Shown here: positions 5,937 through 45,842 of the stretch, piece after piece
Layout of the letters: each line of letters begins with the position of its first letter
Numbering within the stretch: position 1 is the first letter of the stretch
Source: Furfurilactobacillus milii
GTDB lineage: Bacteria > Bacillota > Bacilli > Lactobacillales > Lactobacillaceae
Direction of reading: 5' to 3'
Assembly: GCF_021654115.1 (NCBI RefSeq)
Contig: NZ_JAIWJF010000002.1
Span: forward strand, 1-64,000
DNA length: 64,000 bases
Translations under genes and position numbers: made by a program
Notes under the pieces: generated by a model
Seen by the model: only the letters and a program-made list of their open reading frames with translations
What the model was told of the DNA's origin: nothing
Database searches by the model: none

Positions 5937-6746
5937 TTATAAATCTTCAAAAAAGTTGAATAACTGTTCCCGCGTGAGTTGTTTCTTTTCCTCACCACGG
6001 ACGTCAAACGTAATCTTACCAGCGTTCAGAACAATCAGCCGGTTACCGTATTTCAAGGCGTCCTCCAGTCGGTGGGTGATCATCAGGCAGGTGAGGTGGT
6101 CGGCGGCAATTCTATCGTTAGTTGCCGTCATGAGTTGTTGGGACGTTTTGGGGTCCAGTGCTGCGGTATGTTCATCCAGCAACAGTAGTTCTGGTTTACT
6201 TTCAACAGCCATTAGAAAGCTAAGTGCCTGCCGTTGTCCACCAGAAAGGCTGCCAGTTGCTGTGTTCAAACGATTTTCCAGATTGTTATTCATGGTTGAA
6301 GCCATGGTTTTATATTCATCGAGATGTCTGCGTAAGCCTCGTGGTATGAGGCCGCGTCGTTGTCCACGTTTGCTAGCTAACAGAAGGTTTTCGGCGACGG
6401 TCATCCGTGGCGCGGTCCCTAGTTTAGGGTCCTGGAACACTCGCGCTAGAAAACGCGTGCGTTGTTCTTCACTCTCACGTTTGATTGACTTGCCATGCAG
6501 TAAGACATCACCTTCGTCAGCGTTCAAATTACCCCCGATAACGTTGAACAGGGTGGATTTACCGGCACCGTTAGAGCCCAAGACGGTAATGAAATCGCCG
6601 GGGTAAACGGTCAGATTCAGTCCGTTTAAAATTTTTGTTTCGTTAGCAGTATGTGCGTTAACCACTGTGGAGACGTCTTTTAATTCCAATAGTGGTGTTT
6701 CGGTGGCTGTATCAGCGTTCACAGTTTCATTAGTTGTTGCGTTCAT
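5937..6746 (-). CDS. trpZ: TrpXYZ-type amino-acid ABC transporter, ATP-binding protein
   Basis: A 269-aa ABC ATPase with Walker A (LGSNGAGKST), signature (LSGGQRQALSF) and Walker B (LLLLDEHTAAL). The start is ATG 6746, because AAAGGAG lies 9 nt upstream; an upstream TTG at 6764 would fall in that SD. The SD sits inside the end of the permease gene (17-nt overlap), so translation is likely coupled. With the two genes upstream it forms the COG4120/COG2984-type transporter named TrpXYZ in streptococci for tryptophan uptake. Tryptophan specificity here is inferred from family and from the Trp-codon leader. Confidence 0.87.
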   Translation of the reverse strand: MNATTNETVNADTATETPLLELKDVSTVVNAHTANETKILNGLNLTVYPGDFITVLGSNGAGKSTLFNVIGGNLNADEGDVLLHGKSIKRESEEQRTRFLARVFQDPKLGTAPRMTVAENLLLASKRGQRRGLIPRGLRRHLDEYKTMASTMNNNLENRLNTATGSLSGGQRQALSFLMAVESKPELLLLDEHTAALDPKTSQQLMTATNDRIAADHLTCLMITHRLEDALKYGNRLIVLNAGKITFDVRGEEKKQLTREQLFNFFEDL

Positions 6747-7635
6747 CGCGAACACTCCTTTCAATCAGGCGGTCAAAGTGGAAGAACTTGCGGAACCGTG
6801 GCAACAACAGGCAGATGGCCAAGATAATGGCGGATAGCAAGTTGAGGTCGTTAGCCGAGAAGTTTAACTGGAGTACGATCAGTAGCACGAAGCGGTAGAG
6901 GATACTGCCTAGTGTGACCGCGACCAAACGTTGTGTGAGGGAAAGGTCACCGAATGCCACTTCACCAATAATGATGGAGGCTAATGCGATAACGATGATC
7001 CCGATGCCCATGTTAACGTCCGCGTAACCGTTGTTTTGGGCAACTAAGGCGCCACCCATTGCAATCATGCCGTTTGAAATCATCAATCCCATAATCGTCA
7101 TGCGGTCTGTTTTGATCCCGATGGAACGTGCCATGGTCGGATTGTCACCGGTCGCGATGAACGCTTGACCAAGGTTAGTGTTCAGGAAGAAGACAAGGAG
7201 CAGGGTGACAACGATGATGACGACTAAGCCGACAAAGACACTGTCGAAATATTGTGGTAGTGAAGCTAAAAAGTCGTTCTTAAATAGGGAGGACTTGCCG
7301 AGCAAACTGAGGTTGGCGCGACCCATAATCCGCAGGTTAACGGAATAGGCGGCCGTCATGACCAAAATCCCGGCTAACAAAATTGGAATGCGGCCCTTTG
7401 TGTAAAGTAATCCCGTAATTAAACCGGCGACCATCCCAACTAGAAACGCGCAGAGTGTTGCTAACAGGGGATTCATGCCACGGTAGATAAGGGCGACGGC
7501 TGTTGCGGCGCCTAGTGGAAAGGTGCCTTCAACGGTCATATCAGGGAAGTCGAGAATTCTAAAGGTAAGAAAGAGGCCAAGCCCCAGGACGGCCCATAAT
7601 AGGCCCTGTCCGATAGCTGATGTGATTAAACTCAT
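6730..7635 (-). CDS. trpY: TrpXYZ-type ABC transporter permease
   Basis: A 301-aa, strongly hydrophobic protein with about eight membrane segments. The N-terminus (ITSAIGQGLLWAVLGLGLF) and the GTFPLGAATAVALIY region match branched-chain-type permeases of the COG4120 family, which serve tryptophan or related substrates. It overlaps the upstream receptor gene by ATGA (7632-7635) and the ATPase gene downstream, a tight operon. The cytoplasmic loop ATGDNPTMARSIGI is the likely ATPase coupling region. Confidence 0.88.
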   Translation of the reverse strand: MSLITSAIGQGLLWAVLGLGLFLTFRILDFPDMTVEGTFPLGAATAVALIYRGMNPLLATLCAFLVGMVAGLITGLLYTKGRIPILLAGILVMTAAYSVNLRIMGRANLSLLGKSSLFKNDFLASLPQYFDSVFVGLVVIIVVTLLLVFFLNTNLGQAFIATGDNPTMARSIGIKTDRMTIMGLMISNGMIAMGGALVAQNNGYADVNMGIGIIVIALASIIIGEVAFGDLSLTQRLVAVTLGSILYRFVLLIVLQLNFSANDLNLLSAIILAICLLLPRFRKFFHFDRLIERSVRDERNN

Positions 7636-8627
7636 TTGAATAGTTCCCCTTTCTGTTGTGCTTCTTTGATGTAGGATTTTGGAATGGTGATGCCTAATTG
7701 CTTGGCTGTTTTAAGGTTAATGGTTAAGTCGCCGTGACGGACGTACTTGATTGGCGTCGTCGCTGGTTTTGACTTGTGCTTCAGAATTGATGCGGTCATG
7801 TCACCAGTCAAACGACCTAACTTGTACTGGTTAATGGCGTAGGTAGCAAGACCACCTTGTTTAACCATTGTGTCAGCTGCTGGGAAGACCGGAATCTTCT
7901 TCGCATTGGTGTTGGCAACCAGTGTCTGCATGGCGCTAGCAATTGTGTTGTCGGTTGGAACATAAACGGCATCAACTTGGCCGGCCATGGTCTGTGAAAC
8001 TTGGTTTAAATCATTGGTGTTAGAGATGGAGTACACCTTGAGCGTGATGTTTTCTTTTTTGCACAGTGCTTTAAACTGCTTGTACTGTGCGGTCGCTGAA
8101 TCATCACTGGAAGTGTAGATAATACCAAGCGTTTTCAAGTTTGGCGTCAGTTTTTTGATCAAACCGAGTTGTTGTTTCAGTGGAGCTTGATCCGAGACAC
8201 CAGTGATGTTACCGCCGGGGCGTTTGTTGTTGGCAACCAACTTGGCGCCCTTAGGATCGGTAACGGCACCCAAGACAATCGGCGTCTTCTTAGTAGCGTT
8301 GGCCAAGGCCTGTGCAGAAGGAGTCGCAATTCCGACCGCGGCGTTGACGTGTTCGTGAACAAAACGGGCGCTCATGGATTGCAGGTTACTTTGATCACCC
8401 TCGGCATTTTGAAAGTCGATGTGAATCGTTTTGCCGGGGATGTACCCGTGAGCCTTCAAGCTATCATCAATTCCGTGATTGATGGCGTCCAGCGCAGGGT
8501 GGGTAAGTAACTGTAATACCCCGACCGTTGGGACCTTTTGTTGGGCCGCTTGTTCTTTACTTTCCTGGAAGTAGGCGACACCGAGAAAAACTAGAATAAT
8601 GGCAATGAGACCATACATGCGTTTCAT
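7632..8627 (-). CDS. trpX: TrpXYZ-type ABC transporter substrate-binding protein
   Basis: A 331-aa receptor of the ABC_sub_bind (COG2984) family. Family features are TVGVLQLLTHPALDAI, VGIATPSAQALANATK and PIVLGAVTDPKGAKLV. The N-terminal hydrophobic segment has no lipobox Cys, so it is probably a membrane-tethered or secreted receptor. ATG has AAGGGAG 8 nt upstream. It is the first full-length gene after a 370-nt leader with a mini-ORF and two terminators, so expression is probably decided by transcription read-through. Confidence 0.88.
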   Translation of the reverse strand: MKRMYGLIAIILVFLGVAYFQESKEQAAQQKVPTVGVLQLLTHPALDAINHGIDDSLKAHGYIPGKTIHIDFQNAEGDQSNLQSMSARFVHEHVNAAVGIATPSAQALANATKKTPIVLGAVTDPKGAKLVANNKRPGGNITGVSDQAPLKQQLGLIKKLTPNLKTLGIIYTSSDDSATAQYKQFKALCKKENITLKVYSISNTNDLNQVSQTMAGQVDAVYVPTDNTIASAMQTLVANTNAKKIPVFPAADTMVKQGGLATYAINQYKLGRLTGDMTASILKHKSKPATTPIKYVRHGDLTINLKTAKQLGITIPKSYIKEAQQKGELFK

Positions 8628-8732
8628 AGAAATAACTCCCTTTTCAAACAGAATGTGGTGCTGGCTAGATAGTGACTGACTTTGATGTGAAAGACGTTAG
8701 ACTTCAACCCGAAATTGCTCACGCTCGGATAC

Positions 8733-8767
8733 AAAAAGGGCAGTTCGCAATAATTGCGAGCTGCCCT
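8733..8767 (-). terminator. Second leader terminator before trpX
   Basis: Hairpin AGGGCAG(T/C)TCGCAA with its complement, 14-bp stem and tiny loop, followed on the minus strand by TTTTTG. It comes directly after the T-run of the first leader terminator. Confidence 0.85.
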
Positions 8768-8779
8768 AAAAAATAAAAA

Positions 8780-8823
8780 CACCGAGCCCGCACAGGTTTT
8801 ATAAAATCCGTGCGCTCTCGGTG
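8780..8823 (-). terminator. First leader terminator (candidate attenuator) before trpX
   Basis: Minus-strand hairpin CACCGAG-GCGCAC...GTGCG-CTCGGTG followed by TGTTTTTATTTTTT. It lies about 150 nt downstream of a strong promoter and 93 nt past the leader-peptide stop, the place expected for a transcription attenuator. Confidence 0.85.
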
Positions 8824-8915
8824 ATGAATTCACATCAAAGTTAGTCGGCACAGATACAATCGAAGTGATCTGACTTCAGATTGCATCCATGCAAGATGGT
8901 GGTTAAGCAATCTGA

Positions 8916-8963
8916 TTACCGGCTTTGCCAAGTATTCAATTGGTTCTTAACGTTTTGACTCAT
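8916..8963 (-). CDS. Candidate leader peptide with a Trp codon (MSQNVKNQLNTWQSR)
   Basis: A 15-codon ORF with a very good SD (AAAAGGAG, 9 nt before ATG). The promoter TTGACA-17-TACACT is just upstream. Trp is at position 12, three residues before the stop. Directly after the stop, 8907-8914 pairs with 8877-8884 (GCAATCTG/CAGATTGC). A second partner is possible: the Trp-codon segment TTGGCA can pair with TGCCGA at 8846-8851. Then come the two terminators and the tryptophan-type transporter. The layout fits ribosome-mediated attenuation, but only one Trp codon is present and no T-box motif is visible. Translation is inferred. Confidence 0.65.
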   Translation of the reverse strand: MSQNVKNQLNTWQSR

Positions 8964-9002
8964 CGCAACTAACTCCTTTTCTTAAGCTGTCTTTATGAAA
9001 TC

Positions 9003-9031
9003 AGTGTAGAGGAACAGTAAAACTGTGTCAA
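9003..9031 (-). promoter_or_regulatory. Promoter of the trpXYZ-oppA operon
   Basis: Minus-strand TTGACA, 17-bp spacer, TACACT. The predicted start near 8996 lies about 20 nt before the leader-peptide SD. Confidence 0.8.
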
Positions 9032-9052
9032 TAAGTTTTTTGAGAAAAGTTC

Positions 9053-9349
9053 TCATTTTTGATAGGAAAGGGGTGAATTGCTATCTTTACCAAGGCTTCG
9101 TAGAACTTGTTCCATGATTTCCATACTTTCGTCACTAGGAATCATTTGACCTTGTTCGATTTGAATAATGACCTTTTTAGAAACGCCAGATTTTTTAGCA
9201 AGTTGGCGTCGGCTTAATCTCATTTGGTTCCGTAAGTCATAGATTTCAACGGCAGCATTGTTACGCTTTTGAGCCTCTTCAAATAGTCTTTTTTTTGCAG
9301 GTTCTTTCAAATCCTCATCAATAAGAGAATCAATTGACTTGAGCTCCAT
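9053..9349 (-). CDS. higA: HigA-like XRE-family antitoxin
   Basis: A 98-aa protein with a helix-turn-helix at about residues 40-85 (LRNQMRLSRRQLAKKSGVSKKVIIQIEQG). It follows the toxin gene by a single base, the toxin-first order typical of higBA. It should neutralise the toxin and repress the operon. The N-terminal half is charged and probably contacts the toxin. No strong terminator follows it before the trp promoter. Confidence 0.85.
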   Translation of the reverse strand: MELKSIDSLIDEDLKEPAKKRLFEEAQKRNNAAVEIYDLRNQMRLSRRQLAKKSGVSKKVIIQIEQGQMIPSDESMEIMEQVLRSLGKDSNSPLSYQK

Positions 9350-9350
9350 T

Positions 9351-9692
9351 TTAATCTTTTCCTTTCGTATAGCTGTTGCGGATACTTTTTGCCCGTTTTA
9401 TTTCTCGACGTGGTGTTTTTTGAGTTTTCTTGGTAAAACCACTTACGATAATGTATTGAGATTTGGTGACGTGAAAATAGAGTGCCCGTTGTGAATTAAA
9501 CTTAGTCCTGATTCGAATTTCATATAAATTCTGTCCAATTTTTTTAACCCATTTCTTCGAAATCGACACCTGTAGACCGATGCTTTCAATTTGAGCGATT
9601 TTCGATAAAATTTCCATTCGATCTCTGGAATTCAATGTGTCTAAAAATGTTCGAAATTCAGGTGACCAGTCAAAGTGTACTGAATTTTTCAT
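9351..9692 (-). CDS. higB: HigB/RelE-like type II toxin (Gp49-like family)
   Basis: A 113-aa basic protein of the phage-derived Gp49-like (RelE/HigB) mRNA-interferase superfamily. It has LYEIRIRTKF, RALYFHV and SGFTKKTQKTPRREIKRA, the family's C-terminal strand pair and basic helix. ATG at 9692 gives normal family length. A longer frame from TTG 9725 would start inside the SD. The start codon overlaps the TGA of a 10-codon ORF by ATGA, suggesting translation by re-initiation. Confidence 0.85.
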   Translation of the reverse strand: MKNSVHFDWSPEFRTFLDTLNSRDRMEILSKIAQIESIGLQVSISKKWVKKIGQNLYEIRIRTKFNSQRALYFHVTKSQYIIVSGFTKKTQKTPRREIKRAKSIRNSYTKGKD

Positions 9693-9721
9693 TTGTATCG
9701 TAGCATGTGAAACACTAGCAT
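9689..9721 (-). CDS. 10-codon upstream ORF coupled to higB
   Basis: ATG at 9721 is preceded by AAAGGAG at a 5-nt spacing. It encodes MLVFHMLRYK and ends in TGA overlapping the higB start (ATGA). The toxin ATG itself has no SD, so ribosomes probably reach it through this ORF. Confidence 0.5.
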   Translation of the reverse strand: MLVFHMLRYK

Positions 9722-9797
9722 TCAACTCCTTTATCTCGTCTTAAAACGCCCGCCACTAAACGGTTTTGCGACTGCTCCTTTAAAAAATGGCAGAAAA

Positions 9798-44127: not shown

Positions 44128-45510
44128 TTAGTTGTCTGAAACCGAGGCCGTGGTGTGTTCCCGAGCAAGTTTAACGAAATGCCAAGTCAGGCCGATCACA
44201 GCACCAACTAAAGCGGGGACGACCCAGTCCATACCGTACTTGGCGAATGGCAGGTAGCTCATTTGAAAACTGGTCATGGCTTTACCAAACGCACTTTGGC
44301 TAACGACTGGCGGAAAGGCGGCAATCATGTCGAAAACAGCGGGAACACAAGTGAACAGCACGACGAAAGCGTACACGACTGGATCTCGTTTGAATAGGGG
44401 TGAAGTGATGGATAACAGAATCAGTACCATCGCAAGCGGGTATAAGAACATCAACATTGGCGTGGACCATGAAATGATTAGGTTAAGGCCGATGTTAGCC
44501 GTTAAGAAGGATGCGATAGTGGTGAACCGTAACCAAACGCGGTAGCTGACGCTTGGAAAATGCTTGTGGAAATCTTGGGCAAACGCAGCAACTAAGCCGA
44601 TGGCAGTTGTGAGACAAGTAACCGTGATCAGAACGGCTAAAATAGCTTGTCCGGCGACACCGAGATAGTGGTTGACCAGCTGATCAAACGTAACCCCACC
44701 ATTAGCGGCTAGCTTGAATTGGCCCAATGACATGGCACCAATCACGATTAGTAATAAGTAAATGATGGCTTCGAAACCCATTGAGAAGAAACCAGCACGG
44801 GCCGTAACTAATGCGATGGCGTTAGGATTCCGTTTGCCAAGGGAGCGAATTGCAGTGACGACGGTAACCCCGAAGGCAAGCCCCGCCAAGGCGTCCATCG
44901 TGTTATATCCCTGAAGGAAACCGTTGAAAAAGGCATCATGCTGGTAGGCTGTTGTGACGGCCTGGTGGACAGGATTGCCGAGTGGTTTCAAAAAGGCGAG
45001 GAAGAAGACAAGTGCTAGCAAAATTAGAAAAATTGGGTTTAGCAATTTACCAATGTTGGCGACAATTTTGCTTTGTTCAACGGAAAAGAAATACGCGAGG
45101 CCAAAGAAGACAGCTGAGAAAATGACGAGTCCTAACGTTTGAAAATGGGCAGGCACTAGGGGCGCAACGCCAACTGTATAGGATACAGTCGCTGTCCGGG
45201 GAGTACCAAATAGCGGCCCGATAGTACCGTGAATCAGAACCATAAAGGTGAGTGCAAAGCAAACGCCGAGTGGGCGGCCTACGTCGTAAACACCGCCGGC
45301 CCGGGTGATGCTAATTGCCAGCACAGAGAGTAAGGGAAGCAATACCGCTGTTACCAGAAAGCCTAATGCCGCGCTGAGCCAGTGGGCGCCAGATAATTGA
45401 CCTAGGTGCAACGGAAAGATAAGGTTGCCGGCACCAAAGAAGAGTGCGAACAGCATTGAGCTGACTAACGCATATTCACGTTTGGTTAATTTATGTTCCT
45501 GTAATTCCAT
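44128..45510 (-). CDS. brnQ: Branched-chain amino-acid transporter BrnQ
   Basis: A 460-aa, twelve-helix permease of the LIVCS family (FFGAGNLIFPLHLGQLSG) that imports Leu, Ile and Val with Na+ or H+. ATG 45510 follows AGAGG by 8 nt; the upstream frame from 45537 runs into the T-box leader. A T-box riboswitch directly precedes it, with Ile (ATC) as the candidate specifier codon. Confidence 0.92.
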   Translation of the reverse strand: MELQEHKLTKREYALVSSMLFALFFGAGNLIFPLHLGQLSGAHWLSAALGFLVTAVLLPLLSVLAISITRAGGVYDVGRPLGVCFALTFMVLIHGTIGPLFGTPRTATVSYTVGVAPLVPAHFQTLGLVIFSAVFFGLAYFFSVEQSKIVANIGKLLNPIFLILLALVFFLAFLKPLGNPVHQAVTTAYQHDAFFNGFLQGYNTMDALAGLAFGVTVVTAIRSLGKRNPNAIALVTARAGFFSMGFEAIIYLLLIVIGAMSLGQFKLAANGGVTFDQLVNHYLGVAGQAILAVLITVTCLTTAIGLVAAFAQDFHKHFPSVSYRVWLRFTTIASFLTANIGLNLIISWSTPMLMFLYPLAMVLILLSITSPLFKRDPVVYAFVVLFTCVPAVFDMIAAFPPVVSQSAFGKAMTSFQMSYLPFAKYGMDWVVPALVGAVIGLTWHFVKLAREHTTASVSDN

Positions 45511-45556
45511 ATAATTGCCTCTTTTCATTCGCGTCATCGAGAAACTATTTCTTTGA

Positions 45557-45842
45557 TAAAAAAACGTCCTTAGCCGAATTGCTTCAGCTAAGGACGTTTA
45601 CACGTGTTACCACCTTTGTTCGCAGACCTCTCACGAGAGCCTGCCTCTTCAAGTACGTGGCCTAACGCCAGATACTCTAGCTCTGTAATGGGAGCACCCA
45701 TTGACTACTGTTGTCGTAGTCAACGCTCAAAGATGATGTTCACTTGTGGTTGATCGACGCCCTTTCACCAATCGGCGCTCGCTTAACGATCTTTTCGCAG
45801 GTTACTTTTCTTTTCAACGCGTATTTCATTCATCAAATTTTA
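45557..45842 (-). promoter_or_regulatory. T-box riboswitch controlling brnQ, candidate Ile specifier
   Basis: On the minus strand the conserved T-box reads AAAGGTGGTAACACG (45607-45620), followed by terminator stem AACGTCCTTAGC/GCTAAGGACGTT and TTTTTT. A large stem I precedes it. In the region GTGAACATCATC (45732-45743) ATC occurs twice and is the likely specifier. Promoter TTGACA-17-CATAAT is at 45851-45879. Uncharged tRNA-Ile binding should prevent termination. Confidence 0.85.

Follow-up and report, generated by a model that had tools for sequence, protein, structure and literature searches.

In Escherichia coli, the trp attenuator has a short Trp-containing leader, and the position of the ribosome on it selects either a terminator or an antiterminator. 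Leader-peptide attenuation in Firmicutes is reportedly the subject of a further study. His and Leu leader-peptide attenuators that replace T-boxes have been described in Firmicutes, and for the his genes of Lactobacillales the same papers report T-boxes and not attenuators (PMC2965389, PMC9413887). The trpX gene of Streptococcus suis carries a T-box (PMC9382623). The trpB motif (RF04312), described from over 900 sites in Firmicutes and Fusobacteria, is found mostly upstream of an uncharacterized amino-acid-type ABC transporter and also upstream of trpB; it was published in 2024 as a strong riboswitch candidate by authors who left classic attenuation open (PMC11109978, Nucleic Acids Res. 2024). 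Among the papers listed by searches limited to the open-licence literature, none was found to describe trpX as controlled by a Trp leader peptide, or RF04312 as an attenuator of this type.

We examined the leader upstream of a trpXYZ-oppA operon in the window, i.e. the whole 64,000-nucleotide stretch of DNA analysed, for which the original prediction had proposed ribosome-mediated attenuation in a Gram-positive transporter operon. The comparative evidence supports this proposal, with the qualification that the window leader itself is weak in our equilibrium model, and the leader is very probably a ribosome-mediated transcription attenuator sensing charged tRNA-Trp. It comprises a leader ORF (uORF), the tail of which is segment 0, a post-stop segment (1), the hairpin P1 (2 and 3), terminator 1 (4 and 5) and terminator 2 (6 and 7), as follows:

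9003..9031, minus strand: sigma-70 type promoter-like site TTGACA-17-TACACT, 10/12 consensus matches
8973..8978, minus strand: Shine-Dalgarno sequence AAGGAG of the leader ORF, 9 nt 5' of the ATG, by direct reading
8916..8963, minus strand: leader ORF MSQNVKNQLNTWQSR* of 15 codons, ATG 8963-8961, stop TAA 8918-8916, by direct reading
8928..8930, minus strand: regulatory Trp codon TGG, codon 12, three codons ahead of the last codon
8936..8942, minus strand: segment 0 (codons near Gln-Leu-Asn), candidate for pairing with segment 1
8907..8915, minus strand: segment 1, immediately 3' of the stop codon, its partner being segment 2 (8884-8876)
8873..8892, minus strand: segment 2, left arm of P1, from segment parsing of the leader
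8848..8866, minus strand: segment 3, right arm of P1, with the antiterminator strand at 8855-8848
8806..8823, minus strand: segment 4, left arm of terminator 1 (8823-8808), of which 8813-8806 with segment 3 makes the antiterminator
8768..8796, minus strand: segment 5, right arm of terminator 1 (8796-8780) and U-tract (8779-8768)
8754..8767, minus strand: segment 6, left arm of terminator 2, of which 8762-8756 is able to pair with 8791-8785 of terminator 1
8733..8750, minus strand: segment 7, right arm of terminator 2 and U-tract

The promoter, the 15-residue ORF with its strong Shine-Dalgarno sequence and Trp at codon 12, the competing pairings after its stop codon and the two tandem terminators had all been predicted, and all were found in place on the minus strand. 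Promoter-like sites are frequent by chance (a mean of 1.7 per shuffle in the consensus promoter scan), so that this site alone is little proof. The leader folds better than its shuffles (z -6.4; 0/100 shuffles as good), with P1 (-23.1 kcal/mol) outweighing the 1:2 pairing (-12.4 kcal/mol). Both terminators, at 8823-8768 and 8767-8733, have U-tracts, with duplex energies of -24.5 and -21.3 kcal/mol respectively, and neither was listed by a simple automated terminator scan. An 18-base inverted repeat (8846-8829 / 8692-8675) flanks both terminators and belongs to the predicted fold; we considered it as a mobile element or long-range lock and rejected it, and it was omitted from the mechanism because it is mismatched in one arm in L013 and lacks its second arm in the relative L015. 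A gene pair encoding HTH antitoxin-like and Gp49/RelE-like proteins (9053-9725, minus strand) ends 21 bases ahead of the leader promoter-like site.

Domain searches identified the genes downstream of the leader, and these make up the tryptophan-type transporter that had been anticipated:

7632..8627, minus strand: trpX, tryptophan ABC transporter substrate-binding protein (NF041285, 487.9 bits, cut-off 390)
6730..7635, minus strand: trpY, ABC permease, PF02653 (BPD_transp_2)
5937..6764, minus strand: trpZ, ABC ATPase, PF00005
4273..5913, minus strand: oppA-like substrate-binding protein, PF00496 (SBP_bac_5)

The window TrpX is 99-100% identical to the TrpX of Furfurilactobacillus milii and F. 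rossiae. A homologous leader was present in all four relatives whose leader was read, and the uORFs of L015 and L017, ending in ...QLNTWQS[RW]*, are homologues of the window leader ORF. In addition, the window's genome has a second Trp leader (C23:155892-156060; L010, L017), with the leader peptide MDRCAQQLNTWQSW*, upstream of an oppA-like gene that is 47% identical to the window oppA. This suggests that this OppA serves the uptake of Trp or Trp-peptides.

Homology was also assessed with a covariance model, R1, built from 37 of 49 leaders, none of them from the window's genus; the 12 omitted were mainly trpB-type or other-gene leaders. R1 matched the window leader with 60.3 bits, rank 1 in the 64 kb, with an E value of 2.4e-11 on a rough calibration, the next match within the window having 22.8 bits (E 0.003). 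Genome-wide, the oppA copy at C23 came first (68.9 bits), the window leader second (E 1e-9), and the third match had 21.9 bits. This match, significant although R1 contains no leader of the genus, places the window leader in the R1 lineage, i.e. the Lactobacillaceae-family lineage of RF04312. A permissive Rfam scan of the window leader returned seven matches, all under their gathering scores; these seven weak matches did not include the E. coli Trp leader family, and RF04312 was the only one fitting strand, place and gene (27.0 bits, E 0.13). The window leader fails the RF04312 gathering score of 59, and the oppA copy reaches 41.6 bits. The match runs from 8893, after the uORF stop, to 8770, before terminator 2, and the leader has the RF04312 layout of P1, an antiterminator strand in the right arm of P1, and a terminator in the 5' UTR of an amino acid transporter. 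Judged by these matches, the window leader is a divergent relative of RF04312, within the wider RF04312 lineage. Five weak RF04312 rows in its own genome (L019, L020, L022-L024; E 0.017 to 0.47) were inspected and judged to be chance.

RF04312 itself gave matches in 153/301 genomes of the window's family (E up to 0.01), 133/295 genomes of its order (E up to 1e-4) and 2/398 genomes of the phylum, one of these two lying inside the order; a single scan of the genome contigs gave 6 loci. We read 163 RF04312 loci with 162 distinct leaders, taking every match with a locus, together with 60 picked rows of the family search and 40 rows of the order search, and omitting near-duplicates and weaker rows. 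With an ORF choice that carried no Trp bonus, a strict uORF (ATG plus at least 5 Shine-Dalgarno bases, ending near the hairpin) was present in 114/162 leaders compared with 100/3,240 shuffles, and one with Trp in 105/162 compared with 15/3,240; for a lax uORF the counts were 157/162 and 903/3,240, or 142/162 and 165/3,240 with Trp. Trp made up 163/1,879 residues of the strict uORFs, against 19/1,696 in shuffles. The pairing tests used 151 of these leaders, the other 11 (L034, L099, L129, L133, L138, L141, L142, L144, L145, L147 and L181) being left out as having no uORF or no two hairpins parsed. The uORF chooser of this 151-leader set favoured Trp frames with a bonus, so that its Trp counts, i.e. 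WQ in 130/151 uORFs and a first Trp mostly 4 or 6 codons ahead of the stop, are biased, as is, slightly, the comparison of 25 close pairs. In these pairs, Trp codons were changed in 0/37 comparisons, compared with 53/355 other codons changing amino acid, and changes of the uORF outside Trp were near neutral (25 synonymous, 22.2 expected), on which ground no functional whole peptide is claimed. Unchanged Trp codons in a uORF that otherwise changes near-neutrally are as predicted for a leader peptide, in which the codons count and not the peptide. The invariant or near-invariant columns of two alignments were mainly pairing strands, joined in the Lactobacillaceae-family alignment by the TGGCAA codons.

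These figures bear on the reading as a true riboswitch, in which the P1/terminator RNA would bind an amino-acid-related ligand and the uORF would be incidental. The uORF frequency argues against it, as do invariant columns that are mainly pairing strands and TGGCAA codons, and the different uORF codons before aro operons described below. Conservation of P1 and the terminator would suit a riboswitch, and the trpB motif is listed as a strong candidate in the same paper that leaves classic attenuation open (PMC11109978). Taken together, we regard a riboswitch as very improbable.

The pairings were tested in the 151 leaders by comparing each leader's own arms with arms swapped between members. The z values for own versus swapped arms were -19.5 for 1:2, -29.9 for 2:3, -12.0 for 3:4 and -29.9 for 4:5, to be read with the caveat that the members are related and that repeats along the leader could yield complementarity by descent. 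Pairing of segments 0 and 1, with z -3.9, did not go beyond the control combinations, which spanned -5.5 (for 2:5) to +5.3, and is thus unproven. The 0:3 combination, entered as a control, came out at z -10.8 and is read, post hoc, as a helper pairing. The second terminator was present in 116/151 leaders, and pairing of its left arm with the right arm of terminator 1 (5:6) gave z -14.2, five control combinations giving -3.7 to +1.0. Covariation was assessed in an alignment (A1) of 57 of 68 leaders, with 5 near-duplicates and 6 divergent leaders omitted and the tested helices written from one row. In this 57-sequence alignment, compensatory cells numbered 47 for 1:2 (11.0 in shuffles), 18 for 0:3 (2.5), 8 for 2:3 (1.0) and 53 for 4:5 (10.4). 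The 3:4 pairing had no covariation support (13 compared with 6.4 cells, slid controls being equal), yet 88% of its cells pair. Thus, on pairing energies and covariation, with the covariation of 3:4 excepted, the terminator and antiterminator are mutually exclusive, and the pairing predicted from the aligned leaders is one of two alternating registers, one of which would form both tandem terminators. In the consensus fold of the Lactobacillaceae-family model, the uORF tail pairs with the flank just 3' of P1, extending P1 and not competing with it; because it does so in the window's family, the role of segment 0 varies between families.

The mechanism we propose would operate as follows. When Trp is scarce, the ribosome would stall with TGG in its A site, covering the RNA to approximately position 8918 and leaving segment 1 free. 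Segment 1 would then pair with segment 2, blocking P1 (2:3), so that segment 3 would pair with segment 4; the right arm of terminator 1, freed in this way, would pair with segment 6 (5:6), the left arm of terminator 2, and the polymerase would continue into trpXYZ-oppA. When Trp is plentiful, a ribosome at the stop codon would cover segment 1 (8915-8907), and P1 and then both terminators (4:5 and 6:7) would form. Without translation, the uORF sequence could pair either with segment 1 or with segment 3 together with its flank, and termination would be favoured. As expected of a leader-peptide attenuator, a short ORF with a ribosome-binding site lies ahead of the structure, and its codons suit the operon, with TGG before trpX and Tyr/Phe before the two aro operons of relatives.

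The effect of ribosome position was modelled by equilibrium folding up to the loop of terminator 1, with the ribosome stepped over each codon and an assumed footprint spanning 18 nt on the 5' side and 12 nt on the 3' side of the first base of the A-site codon. Averaged over 141 Trp leaders, 3:4 had 7.75 pairs when the ribosome stood at the first Trp, 2.88 when it stood at the stop and 4.33 in its absence, and the corresponding means for P1 were 8.0, 15.7 and 10.2. In 127/141 leaders, 3:4 pairing with the ribosome on a Trp exceeded that with the ribosome at the stop, and 71/141 switched in the strict sense of at least 5 pairs on Trp and fewer than 5 at the stop. In this model, therefore, a ribosome on the Trp codons would favour antitermination and one at the stop codon termination, as a family average. 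Two leaders with other codons would behave like textbook attenuators in the model: the His leader L028 had 0.1 3:4 pairs without a ribosome, approximately 9 on the His codons and 1.5 at the stop, and L120 had 0.2, 10-13 on the first three Tyr codons and 1.8 respectively. L117 showed no switching in the ribosome model, and L140, L148 and L180 retained 7.5-10.5 3:4 pairs at the stop. The window leader hardly switches at equilibrium (3:4 pairs of 1.16 on Trp and 0.60 at the stop), with 3:4 maxima at codons 3 and 6 (6.0 and 5.0), away from Trp; P1 had the most pairs at every ribosome position scanned, and the oppA sister behaved alike. Its geometry fits: for a ribosome with TGG in its A site the assumed footprint extends to 8918, so that segment 1 (8915-8907) stays free, and for one at the stop codon it extends to 8906, hiding segment 1. 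Switching in the window leader would need cotranscriptional kinetics, with 1:2 perhaps established ahead of P1 while the RNA is being made, or the leader may be a weak switch.

This weak predicted antitermination, together with the strength of the two terminators, is what might be expected if they were constitutive, ending a separate small transcript, with trpX transcribed from its own downstream promoter. The consensus scan of 8400-9400 found no other minus-strand promoter, and the same arrangement recurs before trpX, trpB-like and aro operons, which leaves a constitutive double terminator with only a very slim chance.

Having read the loci, we compared the leader codons with the genes downstream. 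A TrpX-like gene, by BLAST, lay downstream in 122/163 RF04312 loci and 13 further loci were trpB-like by eye, the one scanned being L030 (PF00291). Regulatory codons would appear to be exchanged in some members of the wider RF04312 lineage. The leader L186, ending in ...QLNNYYFSYFR*, precedes aroE, DAHP synthase, aroB, aroC, tyrA, aroA, aroK and pheA, and L117, ending in ...TRYYWFS*, precedes transketolase (tkt), DAHP synthase, aroB and type I dehydroquinase. L120 (YYYGYF), L127 (FFAGFFF), L180 (FYFSYF) and L188 (FNFSYF) all lie upstream of TrpX-like proteins that fall below the TrpX cut-off (308-336 bits compared with 390). These proteins overlap the lowest Trp-led proteins in BLAST score to the window TrpX, so that their identity as Tyr/Phe transporters is only a guess. 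L028 (...HHHLHR*) precedes a basic amino acid antiporter, L084 is a Phe-rich leader upstream of a sodium-dependent transporter, and in the window's genome L018 (C19:74825-74943) is a Tyr/Phe-type leader, MTQSLTYNTYAFAFSLFG*, with hairpin and terminator, upstream of an APC amino acid permease. In L140 and L148, which closely resemble the Trp type (R1 70.5 and 88.0 bits), W-Q is replaced by L-R; both precede a fused substrate-binding/permease gene of a polar amino acid class ABC transporter; their specificity may possibly be Arg or Leu. A match of codon and substrate appears plausible in the His, APC, sodium-transporter and Arg/Leu cases. Among these eleven codon exceptions, only L028 is above the RF04312 gathering score (62.2 bits), the others having 36.7-52.1 bits; R1 matches 10/11 at E up to 0.05, several at just 17-25 bits where an antisense match reaches 22 bits, and L018 has no R1 match at E up to 0.05. 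L126, with serC, possible Ser codons and a TTG start, was considered as an added specificity and rejected as too weak. L116, L118 and L124 are Trp-type leaders (WQVWY, WQAWY) upstream of a membrane protein for which Pfam gave a weak match at best (2HCT, in L118 only), which makes this protein a candidate tryptophan transporter.

The exchanges also bear on whether the uORF might encode a TnaC-like arrest peptide, the nascent chain of which would sense free Trp and stall the ribosome, thus answering free Trp and not starvation. The frequency of WQ, biased as it is by the ORF choice, would be in keeping with such a peptide. However, some members have His, Tyr or Phe runs instead (HHHLH, YYYGYF, YYFSYF), the remaining peptide is variable and WQ is lost in the His, Tyr/Phe and Arg/Leu members, so that there is no conserved arrest peptide; moreover, uptake and biosynthesis genes should be raised by starvation. 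We therefore consider an arrest peptide highly improbable.

We also surveyed trpX control starting from the TrpX protein and not from the RNA, using 150 TrpX matches listed among 295 genomes of the order. RF04312 lay within 800 nt 5' of trpX in 91/150 of the matches listed, distributed by family as f3 43/43, f2 12/14, f5 3/3, f9 14/18, f1 16/30 and f4 3/42. The remaining listed rows outside f4 were the window, a tandem second copy (L239) and 18 others, and 17 of these 18 had a WQ-type uORF and an R1 match, with L232 doing so by construction as it is the same leader as L134, an R1 member; the uORF check of trpX loci lacking RF04312 reported only frames with Trp near the end. L238 had neither a WQ-type uORF nor an R1 match. 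An attenuator was thus found at 109/150 listed trpX genes: 91 with RF04312, the window leader, and 17/18 others by uORF and R1. The Rfam T-box scan covered 39 trpX loci without RF04312, namely 20 of the 39 listed f4 rows and 19 others. Among the matches listed, T-boxes were found in 17/20 f4 loci scanned and in 0/19 non-f4 loci scanned, and R1 matched 0/20 f4 loci. We take f4 to be Streptococcaceae, which agrees with the T-box of S. suis (PMC9382623). The original prediction had held that such operons are usually T-box-controlled in Lactobacillales; these data contradict it, since an attenuator was found at 109 of the 150 listed trpX genes and T-boxes only in f4 among the 39 loci scanned.

In 15/20 f4 loci (L242-L244, L246-L248, L250-L256, L258 and L259), a Shine-Dalgarno-led short ORF with [KR]-W-[RH] lies 5' of trpX, approximately 96-213 nt before the trpX HMM start, and in the loci where coordinates were compared (L242, L244, L247 and L248) it follows the T-box. 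This ORF is a possible second Trp-sensing layer.

At the window leader itself, RF00230 searches, including the permissive Rfam scan, found no T-box, as the original prediction had stated. The sole RF00230 match in the 64-kb window (45587-45826, minus strand, 104 bits) lies 5' of a gene for a 469-aa membrane protein (44128-45537), and across the genome T-box matches with E up to 0.001 number 26, of which 6 are above the cut-off, so that T-boxes are in use in this genome and not at trpX. Control by a T-box or TRAP, to be considered since T-boxes are common in Firmicutes and one is present at S. suis trpX (PMC9382623), has next to no likelihood here, with no RF00230 match at the leader and no PF02081 match for TRAP in the searched genome, the B. 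subtilis control being positive.

With ribosome-mediated attenuation as the preferred reading of the window leader, we propose that RF04312 is likely to be not a riboswitch but a broad, modular leader-peptide attenuator of Lactobacillales, with a conserved scaffold, domino pairings that open or close two tandem terminators together, and codons that can be exchanged, i.e. Trp, His, perhaps Arg/Leu, and, ahead of aro operons and TrpX-like paralogues, Tyr/Phe. For an orphan riboswitch candidate, of which over 900 members have been reported, this offers an answer, namely the ribosome rather than a ligand. Leader-peptide attenuation was the main trpX control found in the sampled genomes, in an order for which T-box control would have been the expectation. 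If the proposal is true, RF04312 would be a translation-based counterpart of the T-box, and, if the scaffold keeps the RNA and swaps the codons, uncharacterized transporters could be assigned to an amino acid from the leader alone. Leader-peptide attenuation is known in principle; the setting and build are new, and they reinterpret a published riboswitch candidate.

Compared with RF04312 as published (PMC11109978), the window leader has the same P1, antiterminator strand in the right arm of P1 and subsequent intrinsic terminator, which in the family lie ahead of trpB or of an amino-acid-type ABC transporter, whereas its uORF, segment 1, terminator 2 and the link of the latter to terminator 1 lie outside the RF04312 match, and the published family is a riboswitch candidate. 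The Trp T-box of Streptococcus trpXYZ (PMC9382623) serves an identical operon type with induction at low Trp, but is a tRNA-binding RNA. The Firmicutes His and Leu attenuators are likewise Gram-positive leader peptides in the stead of T-boxes, but belong to other genes and taxa. With the E. coli trp attenuator the window leader shares a Trp leader peptide and a structure that would be decided by ribosome position; it differs in having two overlapping registers made from seven segments, two tandem terminators, and a ribosome that, at the stop codon, would hide segment 1.
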